Shown: positions 14,999 through 62,610 of the stretch, one piece after another | Position numbering within the stretch: the stretch's first letter is position 1 | How the letters are laid out: each line of letters starts with the position of its first letter | Assembly: GCF_900116285.1 (NCBI RefSeq) | Contig: NZ_FPAJ01000004.1 | Span: forward strand, 62,001-126,000 | DNA from: Sulfitobacter marinus | Lineage (GTDB): Bacteria; Pseudomonadota; Alphaproteobacteria; Rhodobacterales; Rhodobacteraceae | DNA length: 64,000 nucleotides | Reading direction: 5' to 3' | Made by a program: the position numbers and the translations under genes | The notes under the pieces: model-generated | Seen by the model: only the letters and a program-made list of their open reading frames with translations | The model's database searches: none | Told to the model about the DNA's origin: nothing

Positions 14999-15138
14999 GG
15001 CGGTGTTTTGGCCGATGATTGCAAAGATGTCCACTGTCCCGCATGCCATGCCAAAACTGCGGGCAATGTAAAAACATTTGTATCTGAAGGCGCGACTTTG
15101 CTTGACGCTGCGCGGTGATCCGGCATAGCAATAGCCAT

Positions 15139-15292
15139 CGTAACGGGAGAACTGGGAGAACCCAGTGCCGAAGGAGCAACCGCCCCGGAAACTCTCAGGC
15201 AAGTGGACCGTTACGTGACCGAAACACTCTGGAGAGTGGTGCCACATGCACCCGCCGAAGGGATAACGATCTCAGGCGAAAGGACAGAGGGG
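15139..15292 (+). promoter_or_regulatory. Tandem glycine riboswitch (gcvT element)
   Basis: Two glycine aptamers in series. The first is closed by CGTAACGG (15139-15146) pairing with CCGTTACG (15208-15215) and contains GCCGAAGGAGCAA and AAACTCTCAGGCAA. The second runs to about 15292 with CGCCGAAGGGATAAC and ATCTCAGGCGAAAGGACAGA. These are the conserved core elements of the gcvT RNA family. A small hairpin (CCGCA-TCG-TGCGG, 15305-15317) and a purine-rich segment form the likely expression platform before gcvT. Confidence 0.95.
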
Positions 15293-37477: not shown

Positions 37478-37670
37478 GATCCCAAAAAGAGGGCATCAAA
37501 AGATAAAGCCCCTTATTGGATGTGTAGAAGGCCCATGATTCACCCCGAACACAATACGGTCCTGAATAGACGAATGCCCTCGCAAAAATCTGCGGGGTTT
37601 TCCCATCCTCTCGGACGTTGAGAATGAATTCAGCCTTGTTCTCCAACGTTTTCCATGCGCCATTGTAGCC

Positions 37671-38566
<896 letters not shown>

Positions 38567-57006: not shown

Positions 57007-58392
57007 GTGAACGATCAACTTAGACAACTGCCCCAGATCGAGGCGATGCTAGCCTATCCCACAATAGGCGCATTGGTCGATGCATATAGCCGTGATGAAA
57101 CCGTCACCGCCCTGCGCCTGACCTTGGGCAACTTGCGCCATACGATCACCAAGGGCGATCCGGTGCAGCTTCCTGATTTCGCGGAAGATGCCTTTGCCGA
57201 CAGCCTGCGGAAGGTGATCAAGCAAGAGCGGCGGATGAACCTGCGCGCCGTGGTCAATGCGACGGGTATTATCATCCACACCAATTTGGGCCGCGCCCGC
57301 CTTGCGCCGCAAGCGATTGATGCCATGCACGATGTGGGGCTCAACGCTTCAAACCTCGAGCTGAACCTGACCACCGGCAAACGCGGATCGCGCTATGATC
57401 ATGCGGAGGCGCTGATTTGTGAACTGACAGGCGCTGAGGCCGCGTTGATCGTAAACAATTGCGCAGCTGCCGTTGTGTTGGGACTGATGGGCACGGCGAT
57501 GGGGCGCACGGTTGTCGCCTCGCGGGGCGAGCTGATCGAGATCGGCGGATCGTTCCGGCTGCCCGATGTGATCGCGCAAAGCGGGGCCATTCTACGCGAA
57601 GTCGGTGCGACCAACAAAACCCGCCTAAGCGACTATGCCGATGCCATTGATGATAACACTGCCGTTCTGCTGAAAAGCCACACCAGCAATTTCAAGATCG
57701 TCGGCTTTACCTCGGCCCCGGACCGGCGCGATCTGGCCAAACTGGCCCAAGACCGGAACCTGATTTTGATGGAGGATTTGGGCAGCGGTGTCCTGTTCGA
57801 TCTGTCGCCTTATGGGATGACGGACGAACCCGTTGTTGCTGATATTCTAAAAGCTGGCGTGGATGTTGTGATGTTCTCCGGCGACAAATTGCTGGGCGGA
57901 CCCCAAGCCGGTATTATCGCGGGCAAGGCGGATGTGATTGCAAAACTCCGGTCGCATCCCTTGCTGCGGGCCTTGCGGATCGACAAGCTGTCCCTCGCCG
58001 CGCTCGAGGCAACGTTGCGTTTGTACCGCGCGCCGCATGATCCCTTCGATACCATTCCCGTCCTCAAGATGCTGTCAGAACCATTGACTGATGTGCAGGC
58101 GCGAGCCGATGTGCTGGCGGGGCTGCTAGACGGTCTGGTTGCCACCTCGGTCATGCCATCTGACGCCTTTGTCGGGGGCGGGTCGCTGCCGCAACAAGGG
58201 CTGCAAAGCTTTGCGGTCAGCATTGCCCATTCTGACATGACGGCAGACGCCTTGGCCGATGCATTGCGCCATGCGCCGGTGCCGGTGATCGGCCGCATTC
58301 ACCAAGATCAGATTTTGCTGGATATGCGCACGGTGACGGATGCAGAGCTGCCGCTGGTCGTCGATGCCATCGGCCAAGCGCACGCGAAATGA
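57007..58392 (+). CDS. selA: L-seryl-tRNA(Sec) selenium transferase
   Basis: Converts Ser-tRNA(Sec) to Sec-tRNA(Sec) using selenophosphate. The 461 residues are of full length with GTG as start. The PLP lysine is K294 in MFSGDKLLGGPQAG, and family blocks NATGIIIHTNLGRARL and SNFKIVGF are present. Its stop overlaps the selB start (ATGA). The selenophosphate synthetase SelD is not in the window and must be elsewhere. Confidence 0.96.
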   Translation: MNDQLRQLPQIEAMLAYPTIGALVDAYSRDETVTALRLTLGNLRHTITKGDPVQLPDFAEDAFADSLRKVIKQERRMNLRAVVNATGIIIHTNLGRARLAPQAIDAMHDVGLNASNLELNLTTGKRGSRYDHAEALICELTGAEAALIVNNCAAAVVLGLMGTAMGRTVVASRGELIEIGGSFRLPDVIAQSGAILREVGATNKTRLSDYADAIDDNTAVLLKSHTSNFKIVGFTSAPDRRDLAKLAQDRNLILMEDLGSGVLFDLSPYGMTDEPVVADILKAGVDVVMFSGDKLLGGPQAGIIAGKADVIAKLRSHPLLRALRIDKLSLAALEATLRLYRAPHDPFDTIPVLKMLSEPLTDVQARADVLAGLLDGLVATSVMPSDAFVGGGSLPQQGLQSFAVSIAHSDMTADALADALRHAPVPVIGRIHQDQILLDMRTVTDAELPLVVDAIGQAHAK

Positions 58393-60275
58393 CCTCTGCC
58401 TGCGTCATCGTGATCGGCCATGTGGATCACGGGAAAACCACGCTGGTGCGCCGGTTGACGGGTATGGAAACCGACACCTTGGCGCAGGAAAAGCAACGCG
58501 GGCTGTCGATCAATCTGGGCTTTGCTTATTGTCGTTACCCATCTGGCATCGTTGACCTGATCGATGCGCCGGGCCACGAGGATTTTATCCGTGCGATGGT
58601 CGCAGGGGCCACGGGCGCACAGGCGGCGCTGCTGGTGGTTTCCGCTGTCGATGGCATCGCGGCCCAAACACTTGAACATTTACGCATCGCGAAGCTGCTG
58701 GGTGTCCCCGTCCGGTTCGTGGCTGTGACGAAATGCGATGTTCAGAACGCCGGTGATCTGAACGCGGGGCTTGCAACAATCCGCGATGGGCTGAACGGTT
58801 TGGGTCTGGGGGACGTGCCGATAATCCCTGTTGCTGCGGATTCAGAAGCGGGCATTCAGTCCCTGCATCACCGGCTGAAACGGCTCTTGGCTGAGGTTCC
58901 GAAGACGCAAAGCCATTCCGCAAGTTTTCTGCCCGTCGATCGCGTTTTCACGGTGCAGGGTATGGGAACTGTTGTGACTGGCACGTTGCTGGGTGGTGAT
59001 CTGGCTGTGTCCGACGCGATCACCTTGCACCCGCACAACCGACCCGTAACGATCCGCGGCCTGCAATCGCGCGGTGCTGCAAGGGAACGGGTGACCCATG
59101 GGGAACGCACAGCGGTCAATCTTCGTGGCATCGCGGCCGAGGAGATTACGCGCGGCGATGTTCTGGCAGCAGGTGGTCTATGCGCGCCAAGCTCTTGCAT
59201 GGATGTGGAACTGACGCTGCTGCCGGACGCGCCGAAACCGGTCAAGCATATGTCCGACGTTCGGGTACTTTTTGGCACGACACATGCCGTGGCGACCCTG
59301 CGGCTGATGGGCGGGGGGCAGGTCGAGCAAGGATGCGCTGCATTCGCGCAGTTACGTTTTGGCAAACCAGTCACGGGGTATGCCGGTCAGCGGATGATCG
59401 TTCGCAGCTTGTCACCTGCGGATACGATTGGCGGCGCTGTGATCCTTGATCCGTTCTCAACCGGCGTGAAGTCCGGTGATAAAAAGCGGTTGGCGGTGAT
59501 GCAGGCGACCTCTGGCGGTGATGTCCTTGCAATCGCCCATGCGCTTTGTGCGCAGGGGCGGGGCAGCGCGATGCTGGCTTACGCCGCCCGGATTGCGCAG
59601 CAAAGCGAGGCGCGTGTGTTATCCGACCTGGGTACCGCATTCGAGGTGATCGGAAGGGGAGAAATTGCCCCGGCTCAAGCGATCGCGGATGCGCAAAACG
59701 ATCTACTCGCAAAACTGAAAGCCTTTCACGCGGCGCATCCGCTGAAACGCTATGCTCCGCGCGGTGAAATGATGAACCGTGCCCTATCGCCCTTGCTGGG
59801 CCAATTCGTGGAAAATAGCTTGGCCGTGTCAGAGGACATCCGCATCGCCGAAGGTCAGATAGGGCTGGCCAGCTATGATCCTGCTGCGGTCATGACGCCG
59901 CTGCAAAAAGACCGGATGGTCGAGATTGAAACGCAGCTAAGGGACGGAGGGACCACCCCGCCCGGCCTAAGCGAGATTGTGCAATCCAATGAGGACGCGG
60001 ATCTGGTCGAGGTGTTGATTGCCAGTCAGTCAGCCGTTGCAATGGTCAATGTGGGTTTGAACCAGCAGCTGGTCTTTCATACGGCATCGGTCTCGGATGC
60101 AGCGCATGCCTTGCGCGAGGTATTCCCGCCCCCGACGCGGTTTACCACCAGCCAAGCACGCGAGGCGTTGAACACCAGCCGTAAATTCATCGTCCCGCTG
60201 CTTGAATATTTTGACGCCGCAAAAGTGACGCAGCGTGATGGAGACCTGCGCGTGATGGCTGGGCCTGCCGATTGA
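58389..60275 (+). CDS. selB: Selenocysteine-specific elongation factor
   Basis: GTPase that delivers Sec-tRNA(Sec) to UGA codons followed by a SECIS element. The 628 residues have EF-Tu-like domains (G1 GHVDHGKTT, G3 DAPGHEDF, G4 TKCD) and C-terminal winged helices that bind the SECIS hairpin (EALNTSRKFIVPLLEYFD near the end). The length fits bacterial SelB. Four-base overlap with selA, and tRNA-Sec begins 41 bases after its stop. Confidence 0.96.
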   Translation: MTSACVIVIGHVDHGKTTLVRRLTGMETDTLAQEKQRGLSINLGFAYCRYPSGIVDLIDAPGHEDFIRAMVAGATGAQAALLVVSAVDGIAAQTLEHLRIAKLLGVPVRFVAVTKCDVQNAGDLNAGLATIRDGLNGLGLGDVPIIPVAADSEAGIQSLHHRLKRLLAEVPKTQSHSASFLPVDRVFTVQGMGTVVTGTLLGGDLAVSDAITLHPHNRPVTIRGLQSRGAARERVTHGERTAVNLRGIAAEEITRGDVLAAGGLCAPSSCMDVELTLLPDAPKPVKHMSDVRVLFGTTHAVATLRLMGGGQVEQGCAAFAQLRFGKPVTGYAGQRMIVRSLSPADTIGGAVILDPFSTGVKSGDKKRLAVMQATSGGDVLAIAHALCAQGRGSAMLAYAARIAQQSEARVLSDLGTAFEVIGRGEIAPAQAIADAQNDLLAKLKAFHAAHPLKRYAPRGEMMNRALSPLLGQFVENSLAVSEDIRIAEGQIGLASYDPAAVMTPLQKDRMVEIETQLRDGGTTPPGLSEIVQSNEDADLVEVLIASQSAVAMVNVGLNQQLVFHTASVSDAAHALREVFPPPTRFTTSQAREALNTSRKFIVPLLEYFDAAKVTQRDGDLRVMAGPAD

Positions 60276-60316: not shown

Positions 60317-60411
60317 GGAGGTGACTGGAGTCTGGTGGCTTCCCTGGTCTTCAAAACCATGGACGCGTCGACAAGGCGCGTGGTGGGTTCGATTCCCATC
60401 CACCTCCGCCA
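60317..60411 (+). tRNA. selC: tRNA-Sec (anticodon TCA)
   Basis: A 95-base tRNA with the long extra arm and 8-bp-type acceptor characteristic of tRNA-Sec. GGAGGTG (60317-60323) pairs with CACCTCC (60401-60407), then a G discriminator and encoded CCA. The D stem GGAGTC/GGCTTC has six pairs. The anticodon loop CTTCAAA places TCA at 60351-60353, and the T loop is GGTTCGATTCC. It sits directly downstream of selB. Confidence 0.96.
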
Positions 60412-60474
60412 AGTTTCTGGACATTCGCCCCAAACCTCCATCAATGTGCAAATGCATACTTGGGAGGGTGGCAG

Positions 60475-62064
60475 ATGATCGATGCAGCGCGGGCTTTCAC
60501 ACTTAGTAATCTTGACGGGACACCCTACGTTTTTGACGGCACAGGCCCAAGCCTGGTGTGTTTCGTGAAAGACGATTGCGAAACCTGCAACATCGCAGGC
60601 CCGGTTCTTGAGGGGCTTTTCAAGGCCTATGGCGGCGGCATCAATATGGTCGCGCTGGGGCAATCCGGCGATAAAAACGCAGATTTTGCGCAGCGTCACG
60701 GCCTGACAATGCCCGTGTTGGGTGATGCAGGATGCAAGGTGTCTTTTGATTGGGATATCGAAATTGTGCCTGCCGTGTTCTGGATTGATGCAGATGGCAA
60801 TGTCGTCACCAAATTCGAAGGGTTCGTGCGTGACGACTGGCAGGCCCTGTCCGATCAGATTACCATTGAAACACGCCAACCCGTTGCGCAAATCGATTGG
60901 GATAGCTTGCCCGCGTGGCGGCCCGGTTGCGGATCAAAACACTTTGACCCCGAGATTTACGACAAGCTGCGCGCCGAAGCGGACGGCAGCGTTTTGCGTG
61001 CCCGCAAGGTAGAGGTCGCCAGCGGTGATGATGTGGCCGAGTTTATGTTCGATCAGGGGTTTTCGGATGGTTTGCCACTGGTGCCGCCGACACCTGAACG
61101 GGTGATGCGGATGCTTGCAGGCACCCACCGCGACCCGCAAGACTTGGTGGCAACCGTGCCCCCGAACATGGGTGTTGGCACGGTCGAAAAAATCGCGATC
61201 AATGCGGTGATGGCCGGCTGCAAACCGGAATATCTGCCCGTGGTAATTGCCGCAGTCGAGGCCGTTTGCACCGATGAATTCAACATCCACGGGGTCACAG
61301 CAACCACAATGGGGGCGGCCACGGTTGTGATTGTGAACGGGCCTGTGGTGGACAAGATCGGCATGAACGCGGGCCTTGGCGCGATGGGGGCGGGTAACCG
61401 TGCCAACGCCACAATCGGGCGCGCGTTGCGGTTGGTGATCCGCAATGTCGGCGGGGCGACGACGGGGGGCGTTGAACGGTCAACGCTTGGCAACCCGATG
61501 AAATACACCATGTGCTTTGCCGAGAATGAGGCCGTGTCGCCGTGGGATCCGCTGCATGTTGAACGGGGCTTCAAGGCAGACGATTCCGTTGTGACCGTTT
61601 TTGCGATGACGGGCGGCCCTGTGCATATCGTCGACCAGACATCGCGTAAACCGGATCAGATTGCAGGGTCCTTGGGGCAGGGGCTCGAAGGGGTGTTCAT
61701 GCCCAAGCTGCATAACCTGCCCATCGACGCGCTGCTGGTCGTGTGCCCCGAGCATATCAACACGCTGACCGTTGATGGGGAATATTCCAAAGACCGTCTG
61801 CGGGATCGCATTCAAGAGGTCACATCCCGACCCCTAAGCGAAATGGTGCAGGACGATCATTCGGGCGCGGGGATTCCCGTTGCTGATGCCAAGAAGATGG
61901 ATCCGGAAAAACTGGCCAAGCTCGCCCCGAAATTCGCAGGCAAAGAATATATCCACATCGTTGCCGCAGGCGGCGATGCAGGCAAGTTTTCGTCGGTCTT
62001 TCATGGCTGGGCCACGGGGGCTGTGGGGTCAATTTCCGTTTCCAGAAAGATCGATCTGGGATAA
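60475..62064 (+). CDS. Thioredoxin-fold fusion protein upstream of selenoprotein
   Basis: A 529-residue protein. Residues 1-125 form a thioredoxin/AhpC-like domain with the redox motif CETC (C35, C38) and DIEIVPAVFWIDADGN containing the cis-Pro. The remainder, from about 190, is a domain I do not recognise: GFSDGLPLVPPTPERVMRML, NMGVGTVEKIAINAVMAGCKPEYL, GVTATTMGAATVVIVNGPVV and Gly-rich GAMGAGNRANATIGRALRLV. ATG 60475 follows GGGAGGGTGGCAG; the frame opens at a TTG at 60460. It lies 24 bases ahead of the Sec gene and 63 after tRNA-Sec, so a redox role linked to that selenoprotein is likely. Confidence 0.75.
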   Translation: MIDAARAFTLSNLDGTPYVFDGTGPSLVCFVKDDCETCNIAGPVLEGLFKAYGGGINMVALGQSGDKNADFAQRHGLTMPVLGDAGCKVSFDWDIEIVPAVFWIDADGNVVTKFEGFVRDDWQALSDQITIETRQPVAQIDWDSLPAWRPGCGSKHFDPEIYDKLRAEADGSVLRARKVEVASGDDVAEFMFDQGFSDGLPLVPPTPERVMRMLAGTHRDPQDLVATVPPNMGVGTVEKIAINAVMAGCKPEYLPVVIAAVEAVCTDEFNIHGVTATTMGAATVVIVNGPVVDKIGMNAGLGAMGAGNRANATIGRALRLVIRNVGGATTGGVERSTLGNPMKYTMCFAENEAVSPWDPLHVERGFKADDSVVTVFAMTGGPVHIVDQTSRKPDQIAGSLGQGLEGVFMPKLHNLPIDALLVVCPEHINTLTVDGEYSKDRLRDRIQEVTSRPLSEMVQDDHSGAGIPVADAKKMDPEKLAKLAPKFAGKEYIHIVAAGGDAGKFSSVFHGWATGAVGSISVSRKIDLG

Positions 62065-62088
62065 CATAGGAGTAAGAGGAGGACATGA

Positions 62089-62610
62089 ATGACAATAATT
62101 CTCGACCCGACGGATGAACGCATCCCGGTCGCGCGTCAGATTGCCGAACGAACGGGGTCTGTGCAGGGGGTTGTGGGGTTGCTGAACATCAGTAAGCCAC
62201 GCGGCAATATCCTGCTGGATGAGTTGGACCGTTTGCTGGCAGAAGGCGCGCCCGGCGTAGAAATCCGGCGCTATACCAAGCCGACATTCGCCAAGCCATG
62301 CCCTGACGCATTGCGCCATCAAATTCGCGATGAATGCGATTTCTTGGTAGAGGCATTGGCGGACTGAGGATCATGTACCACGTGCAGTATGCACGATACA
62401 GTCTGGTTTGAAATCCAGGGGATCCCATCCGTTTCTGTCGCCTCAAGCGCATTTGGCCAAGCTGCTGAAACACAGCGCAAGGCGCTTGGTATGGAAGGCG
62501 CGCGATATGTCTTGGTGCCGCATCCTATTCAGGATGCTACCGATGATGAAATGCGCATCAAAGCGCGCGAAGCCTATGATCAGATCATGGCAGCGTTGCG
62601 CGAAAAGTGA
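62089..62610 (+). CDS. UGSC-motif selenoprotein (TGA at 62365-62367 read as Sec)
   Basis: Two apparently separate frames, 62089-62367 and 62389-62610, are in the same frame and join through TGA into a 173-residue chain. The junction reads A-D-U93-G-S-C-T-T-C-S-M-H, giving the U-G-S-C motif that names a known selenoprotein family, with further cysteines at 96 and 99. Nothing resembling a start or ribosome site precedes the second half. A SECIS-like stem-loop begins seven bases after the TGA, and selA, selB and tRNA-Sec lie just upstream. The N-terminal half (ILDPTDERIPVARQIAERTG) and the C-terminal half are both conserved-looking. An AGGAGG site precedes the ATG. The biochemical role is unknown; a redox activity using Sec93/Cys96 is inferred. 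Confidence 0.9.
62365..62400 (+). promoter_or_regulatory. Sec codon and bacterial SECIS-like hairpin
   Basis: After TGA (62365-62367), TGTA (62374-62377) pairs with TACA (62397-62400) and CGTGC (62381-62385) pairs with GCACG (62391-62395), capped by AGTAT. The apex GCAGTATGCAC resembles the E. coli fdhF SECIS apex GCAGGTCTGCAC, including a GU in the loop, and lies about 19 bases after the UGA as expected for SelB. Confidence 0.8.

Follow-up and report, generated by a model that had tools for sequence, protein, structure and literature searches.

The 64,000-nucleotide stretch of Sulfitobacter marinus DNA analyzed here (below, the window; contig NZ_FPAJ01000004.1) contains two adjacent short ORFs that meet at a TGA codon. 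Are these two reading frames, or one gene in which TGA encodes selenocysteine (Sec), and what could the product of such a gene do? The initial annotation proposed a single selenoprotein gene with a U-G-S-C motif. It overlooked both the partner gene located directly upstream and the relationship of the protein to the reductase subunits PrdB and GrdB. The features discussed below are collected in Table 1; individual loci and genomes are cited by L and G numbers, respectively.

Table 1. Features of the UGSC gene cluster in the window
Feature	Coordinates	Strand	Evidence
selA, L-seryl-tRNA(Sec) selenium transferase	57007..58392	+	TIGR00474, E 4.6e-171, over cut-off
selB, Sec-specific elongation factor	58389..60275	+	TIGR00475, E 2.6e-86, over cut-off
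tRNA-Sec, anticodon tca	60317..60411	+	ARAGORN; Rfam RF01852, 76.7 bits
Partner protein, 530 residues	60472..62064	+	AhpC-TSA/Redoxin over cut-off; Foldseek ResA (N-terminal domain)
Partner C-terminal unnamed domain, ~345 residues	61030-62061	+	No convincing Pfam or NCBIfam match; beside UGSC in 107/110 loci
Shine-Dalgarno-like GAGGAGG of the UGSC gene	62076..62082	+	Sequence, by eye
UGSC-family selenoprotein gene (predicted), 173 residues, Sec at 93	62089..62610	+	Pfam and NCBIfam matches; TGA kept in 110/110 loci
TGA predicted to be decoded as selenocysteine (U93)	62365..62367	+	TGA conservation among loci
Predicted SECIS-type hairpin, CGTGC-AGTAT-GCACG	62381..62395	+	Compensatory changes, 43 distinct segments
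Spurious short ORF, second half of the UGSC gene	62389..62610	+	ORF list; Pfam

A single gene of the UGSC family

The ATG codons at 62089 and 62389 share one frame at a distance of 300 bases, and the two ORFs join at the TGA codon, yielding ALADUGSCTTCSMHD around residue 93 when this codon is read through. The read-through protein matches the Pfam UGSC model (PF24696) at residues 4-171 with E 1.8e-47 and 162.1 bits (cut-off 25), and the NCBIfam model UGSC_fam (NF041046) with 177.5 bits (cut-off 125). When the halves are scanned separately, each matches the corresponding half of the Pfam model (2.7e-14 and 7.5e-19). Thus, the join at the TGA codon is more than a chance coincidence. As the initial annotation anticipated, a standard ORF caller splits the gene, and the second ORF is the second half of the UGSC protein; by eye, no ribosome site is visible before 62389, and the Shine-Dalgarno-like GAGGAGG precedes the first ORF.

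Two observations had been named as arguments against read-through, namely homologs that all end at the TGA codon and a different stop codon at this site in relatives. Relatives read through in all 110 loci compared, with TGA at the recoded site in every one of them, and the terminal stop codons of the same loci vary (TGA in 49, TAG in 34, and TAA in 27). These loci are not independent: they comprise the best 80 of 149 relatives plus 30 from relatives' genomes, and both near-duplicates and the record of the window itself (L102) are among them. In the 98 genomes of relatives, 37 of 37 UGSC matches span one TGA. Both halves are under purifying selection, with dN/dS of 0.05-0.12 before the TGA codon and 0.03-0.15 after it in comparisons with seven relatives, dS being saturated in some pairs (up to 3.2).

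In both libraries, the match to the UGSC family is full-length. In 19 diverse members, the columns of U93 (Sec or Cys) and of the resolving Cys96 are invariant, unlike that of Cys99. Homologs with Cys in place of Sec (CGSC) are found in L144 and in plasmid loci of haloarchaea, Arthrobacter, Embleya, Roseovarius, and Variovorax. The window gene is a full member of this family, the "UGSC-containing protein" of the Global Ocean Sampling (GOS) survey: it shares the U-G-S-C motif, the family exists in Sec and Cys forms, and the gene itself shows no difference. In the available part of the GOS paper, UGSC is fifth by sequence number in the table of selenoproteins, with 255 sequences (PMC2398784), and a 2026 review, also available in part, counts it among selenoproteins with largely uncharacterized functions (PMC13188914). 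The family is therefore already known, and, as far as these partly available sources go, the literature assigns it no function; what is new is its relationship to PrdB, its constant association with one partner family, and the link to thioredoxin.

Judging from sequence conservation, the region 62089-62610 is almost certainly one selenoprotein gene, with its TGA codon read as Sec.

Several irregular copies were encountered among the fetched loci. In L149 (4908-6443, Acidovorax sp. T1 plasmid p2-T1), the UGSC gene is of the Sec type and seems to be fused to the partner; its annotation, a hypothetical protein of 96 residues, ends at the TGA codon, and the plasmid is typed as conjugative, IncP. 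The gene of L175 has the Cys motif CGSC and an in-frame TGA other than the one discussed above; its first part lies in another frame, and the copy may be decayed or misassembled. The weak UGSC match in L076 arises from a short second copy of the gene's own 3′ end.

A SECIS-type hairpin downstream of the TGA codon

In bacteria, Sec insertion depends on a SECIS hairpin located just past the TGA codon, with a G in the first two loop bases and the loop at approximately 16-37 nt from TGA. The window hairpin has this layout. Its stem begins at the 14th base past TGA, the first loop base is the 19th, the loop consensus is AGUNU, and changes in the stem are compensated. The five-pair stem is unbroken in 37 of 37 distinct segments from the window and the 110 loci.

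A formal covariation count was made on 43 distinct segments, of which 34 came from the window and relatives' contigs and nine from divergent genes of the Sec type; the count omits three of the distinct segments of the 37-segment survey. In this alignment, 99.5% of stem cells are paired, and changes on both sides occur in eight cells of two pairs (G-C to A-U in five, C-G to G-C in three). None of 500 shuffles matched the observed number of paired cells, the number of double-changed cells, or the covariation score; for the two measures based on numbers of pairs and of pair types, 104 of 500 did. The single-sequence folding energy of the window segment is unremarkable (z -0.72).

Codon choice follows the hairpin, as seen in the same 43 segments, on which the Fisher tests of codon choice ignore relatedness. 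Codon 99 is TGC in 40 segments and TGG (Trp) in three, and these three all carry C instead of G at the opposite base. At codon 100, 42 segments have AGT and the remaining one has the Cys codon TGT; by contrast, Ser95 uses six codons. Among 11 Cys homologs, none has AGT at the place of codon 100, and only three have Ser there. Some Cys homologs (e.g., L151 and L153) can also fold a hairpin at this place. Taken together, the compensatory changes support a predicted SECIS-type hairpin after the TGA codon. The two frames reported by a standard ORF caller would be expected if translation really ended at TGA and the rest were a separate or dead frame, but the uniform TGA among mixed terminal stops, the constraint on both halves, and the hairpin leave this reading with practically no credit.

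Selenocysteine machinery and genomic distribution

The initial annotation placed selA, selB, and tRNA-Sec immediately upstream on the same strand. Strand and direction were right; the genes are not immediately adjacent, as the gene of the 530-residue partner (60472-62064) intervenes. The genome carries selA, selB, selD, and tRNA-Sec, with SelD encoded outside this cluster. The search of this genome for other selenoproteins covered Fdh-alpha, SelD, and PF07355; the first two gave matches that lack an in-frame TGA, and PF07355 gave none.

In the genus (this genome and 57 others), UGSC is present in 31 genomes and selA in 32, and all 31 genomes with UGSC have selA. Of the 27 genomes without UGSC, a single one has selA (G050, a partial match in a genome that is 89% complete and in 380 contigs). 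Outside the genus, UGSC was found in three of the same 98 genomes; G083 and G090 also have selA. Four Sec-type UGSC genes with partners (L176-L179) occur in G068 (77% complete), with no selA match found there. The opposite pattern, selA without UGSC, is seen in G064 and G071, also outside the genus. In a draw across the phylum, UGSC was present in five of 398 genomes.

The neighborhood of Sec-type loci, surveyed in 80 loci as ORF clusters that were named from sequence, is dominated by Sec genes: selB in 55, selA in 53, and an Ndh-SelD-like gene in 19. No frequent metabolic neighbor besides the sel genes was observed in these 80 loci. Nine cassette-free genomes were examined for an empty site; both flanking genes were found in four of them (G002, G003, G009, and G030), where they are not neighbors. 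In three carriers (G012, G013, and G047), the cassette sits between the flanking genes as in the window.

A constant partner encoded upstream of UGSC

The partner protein consists of a ResA/TlpA-type thioredoxin-like domain (residues 1 to ~135, with CETC at 36-39), a linker, and a domain of ~345 residues. Its start at 60472 is our choice; the ORF list gives TTG at 60460. The N-terminal domain resembles ResA/TlpA-type thioredoxin domains, including the CxxC motif, but differs from them in being fused to an unnamed domain within a selenoprotein gene cluster.

The partner gene lies 5′ of UGSC at a distance of -4 to 199 nt in 107 of the 110 loci, and the other three (L035, L037, and L046) begin at the UGSC gene itself. 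Of 18 matching plasmid records, 11 were fetched, and all 11 have the partner next to UGSC or fused with it; so do all 11 loci of a further set, in which L179 and L182 come from genomes sampled before. Both proteins occur in the same five of the 398 genomes drawn across the phylum. Natural fusions of the two are present in L157 and, as judged by frame length, in L149. All this suggests that UGSC and its partner very probably form a two-component unit. In the available part of its text, the GOS survey reports UGSC fused to an "Unknown_1" domain (PMC2398784), which, we infer, is the partner family.

Two further arrangements were observed. In L155 (4917-6585, a Neorhizobium galegae plasmid), a UGSC-like gene with C-S-T-C is fused to the start of the partner, whose remainder is in another frame, so that the gene is broken or misassembled. 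In L151, L154, L173, and L178, two partner copies flank or follow a single UGSC gene.

The C-terminal domain of the partner has no convincing match in Pfam (best E 0.023) or NCBIfam (best E 0.061). A sequence search of the partner against PDB gave two weak rows (E 0.0085 and 4.5), which we consider chance matches. In a Foldseek comparison of the partner model, the top 50 of 1138 matches appear to fall on the thioredoxin domain, leaving no fold assignment for the C-terminal domain.

The thioredoxin link varies between lineages. Of the 42 aligned partners in the window's clade, 31 have an AhpC-TSA match with E 0.01 or lower. The divergent partners of L174, L176, L177, L180, and L181 are 470-490 residues long with CxxC near the start; their Pfam thioredoxin matches are under the cut-off (L174, 6.6e-4; L176, 0.013), absent, or to another family. 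No thioredoxin fusion was seen in the partners of L172, L173, L175, and L179. Annotated trxB or trxA genes adjoin L148, L150, and L152, and a pyridine-nucleotide disulfide oxidoreductase is encoded near L174 and L157. Within 5 kb of the plasmid loci L147, L149, L151, L153, L154, and L155, the annotation shows no thioredoxin gene.

Probable relationship of UGSC to PrdB and GrdB

The Sec-containing region of UGSC resembles that of PrdB, the selenoprotein subunit of D-proline reductase, and of the related GrdB (PF07355). We compared 19 diverse UGSC proteins with four proteins annotated as PrdB, which carry U-G-T-C, and with nine alphaproteobacterial proteins of the PF07355 type; the latter are nine of ten read from 30 fetched loci, L138 being left out. 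The hhalign probability is 85.4% (score 46.5, E 5.9e-6) over 94 columns, with the Sec column aligned to the Sec column and the aligned stretch running past the G-I-P-x-V strand to the H-P-I/P-L segment. Masking the four motif columns leaves a score of 38.0 (55%) in the same register. As controls for the score of 46.5, 150 column shuffles reached at most 21.1, the reversed profile 16.1, and the partner profile 18.8; in another control, PrdB against the fused thioredoxin domain, the score was 24.3, which is above the shuffles, at a probability of 4.7%. Shallower alignments gave weaker values (53% and 73%). Among subsets, Cys-type UGSC proteins alone gave 88%, the four PrdB proteins alone 66% (39 columns), and the nine PF07355-type proteins alone 76%.

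A search with the UGSC HMM over 10,379 six-frame segments ranked PrdB genes first after UGSC itself: L168 (5.6e-4) and L169 (6.2e-4), then L135, L167, L166, and L165. These matches are weak and their E-values local, since 944 of the segments stem from loci that had been collected for PF07355 or PrdB. Apart from UGSC pieces in L175 and L076, nothing else ranked among them. The reverse search was weaker, with rows from UGSC loci at E 0.04-10 whose frames were not each checked. UGSC gave no row against PF07355 up to E 1, and the PF07355 cut-off was not reached. On a Sec-containing PrdB (L166, 2200-2922), the match to Pfam PF07355 (GRDB) ends at residue 149, in the last positions of the model, and Sec is residue 151. 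The model thus stops just before Sec and does not represent the conserved part that UGSC shares with PrdB, and for this reason the libraries may miss the link between UGSC and PrdB. A sequence search for a PrdB-type structure in PDB found none.

The two families have in common the Sec column, the U-G-S/T-C motif, the helix, and the G-I-P-T/S-V strand, and Sec and Cys forms occur in both. They differ in that UGSC is shorter, has no PF07355 match, and resembles PrdB/GrdB only in the Sec region and what follows; the UGSC partner is also unlike PrdA. The partner was considered as a PrdA candidate and rejected, the hhalign probability with three PrdA sequences being 0.3%. The profile comparisons point with good confidence to kinship between UGSC and PrdB/GrdB through a shared Sec domain. 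In the partial literature coverage, mostly without subscription papers, there is no statement that links UGSC with PrdB/GrdB or describes the partner as constant.

In L063 (8154-8777) and L077 (8637-9227), a PF07355-type selenoprotein gene with U-P-F-C is located directly downstream of UGSC, so that two related selenoproteins are adjacent.

The AlphaFold model of UGSC (pLDDT 87.7, pTM 0.84) has a five-strand Rossmann-like fold, and its best PDB matches are generic flavodoxin-like proteins at TM ~0.47. The GOS survey, in its available part, suggested a thioredoxin-like fold (PMC2398784). This suggestion agrees with the UxxC motif, but not with the predicted Rossmann/flavodoxin-like architecture, with the top 50 of 1785 structure matches, which contain no thioredoxin, or with the hhalign comparison of UGSC and the fused thioredoxin domain (0.5%, score 15.3). 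We rejected a thioredoxin fold for UGSC, considering it highly improbable.

Proposed function

In proline and glycine reductases, Sec is located in a PrdB/GrdB-type subunit, a pyruvoyl subunit binds the substrate, and thioredoxin or another dithiol is the reductant (PMC13188914, available in part). The pyruvoyl family PrdA/GrdE (PF09338) was found in none of 20 UGSC-carrying genomes, in a search in which no control genome gave a match either; by hmmscan, the same model finds the PrdA of L166 at 1.4e-22. As no pyruvoyl subunit was found, the unnamed domain of the partner would take its place in a working mode otherwise similar to that of proline reductase. The selenolate of U93 would attack a substrate held by the partner and cleave or reduce one of its bonds. 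The resolving Cys96 would then free the product with formation of an Se-S bond, which thioredoxin would reduce again, through the CETC module fused to the partner here and perhaps through the trxA or trxB products encoded nearby in some other loci.

Overall, a two-component, thioredoxin-fed selenoenzyme reductase is the best reading of these data, and we consider it reasonably probable. The thioredoxin-fed reductase step taken separately is slightly favored on sequence grounds, its odds being lowered by the weak thioredoxin matches in divergent partners.

Hints on the substrate come from Cys homologs, which are encoded near TRAP, TAXI, or tripartite transporters, CoA transferases or lyases, and DUF6282 proteins. 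The transporters and CoA genes near several of them may indicate a small organic acid or amine that the cell imports; given the lack of a frequent metabolic neighbor at Sec-type loci, the assignment of a substrate is a guess.

These neighbors also bear on another interpretation, in which UGSC has an antioxidant role, as a thiol-disulfide oxidoreductase or peroxidase, and is reduced by the thioredoxin-fused partner, with no small organic substrate involved. Such a role would fit the UxxC motif with its invariant resolving Cys, the thioredoxin fusion in the window's clade or trx genes nearby, and the absence of a frequent catabolic gene at Sec-type loci. However, UGSC is probably kin to PrdB rather than to thioredoxin, the large conserved domain of the partner would be needless, and several Cys homologs do have catabolic neighbors, so that we regard an antioxidant role as unlikely. 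Improbable, in our estimate, is a non-reductive reaction in which the pair binds a metal or an organic cofactor and Sec serves as a ligand or nucleophile. The invariant His, Asp, and Lys residues of the UGSC alignment and the unassigned partner domain would be compatible with it, but the UxxC pair and the association with thioredoxin point to redox cycling.

Returning to the two-component reductase, we tentatively suggest, as a possibility short of even chances, that it represents a new class of selenoenzyme reductases, in which a PrdB-type Sec domain has been re-partnered with an unnamed family and is driven by thioredoxin. The class would comprise alphaproteobacterial members as well as Cys-containing ones from haloarchaea and actinobacteria, groups whose UGSC-bearing members we take to be aerobes. 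If so, Stickland-type reductive cleavage chemistry would have been carried into aerobes without the pyruvoyl subunit, and UGSC would be the main or only reason for the Sec machinery in the window's genus. Kinship with PrdB, the steady association with one partner, and the connection to thioredoxin together offer a concrete mechanism that can be tested, and they argue against the earlier guess of a thioredoxin fold.

Elsewhere in the window, a cobalamin riboswitch (37658-37835) and a glycine riboswitch (15134-15220) were detected, both over the Rfam gathering scores.
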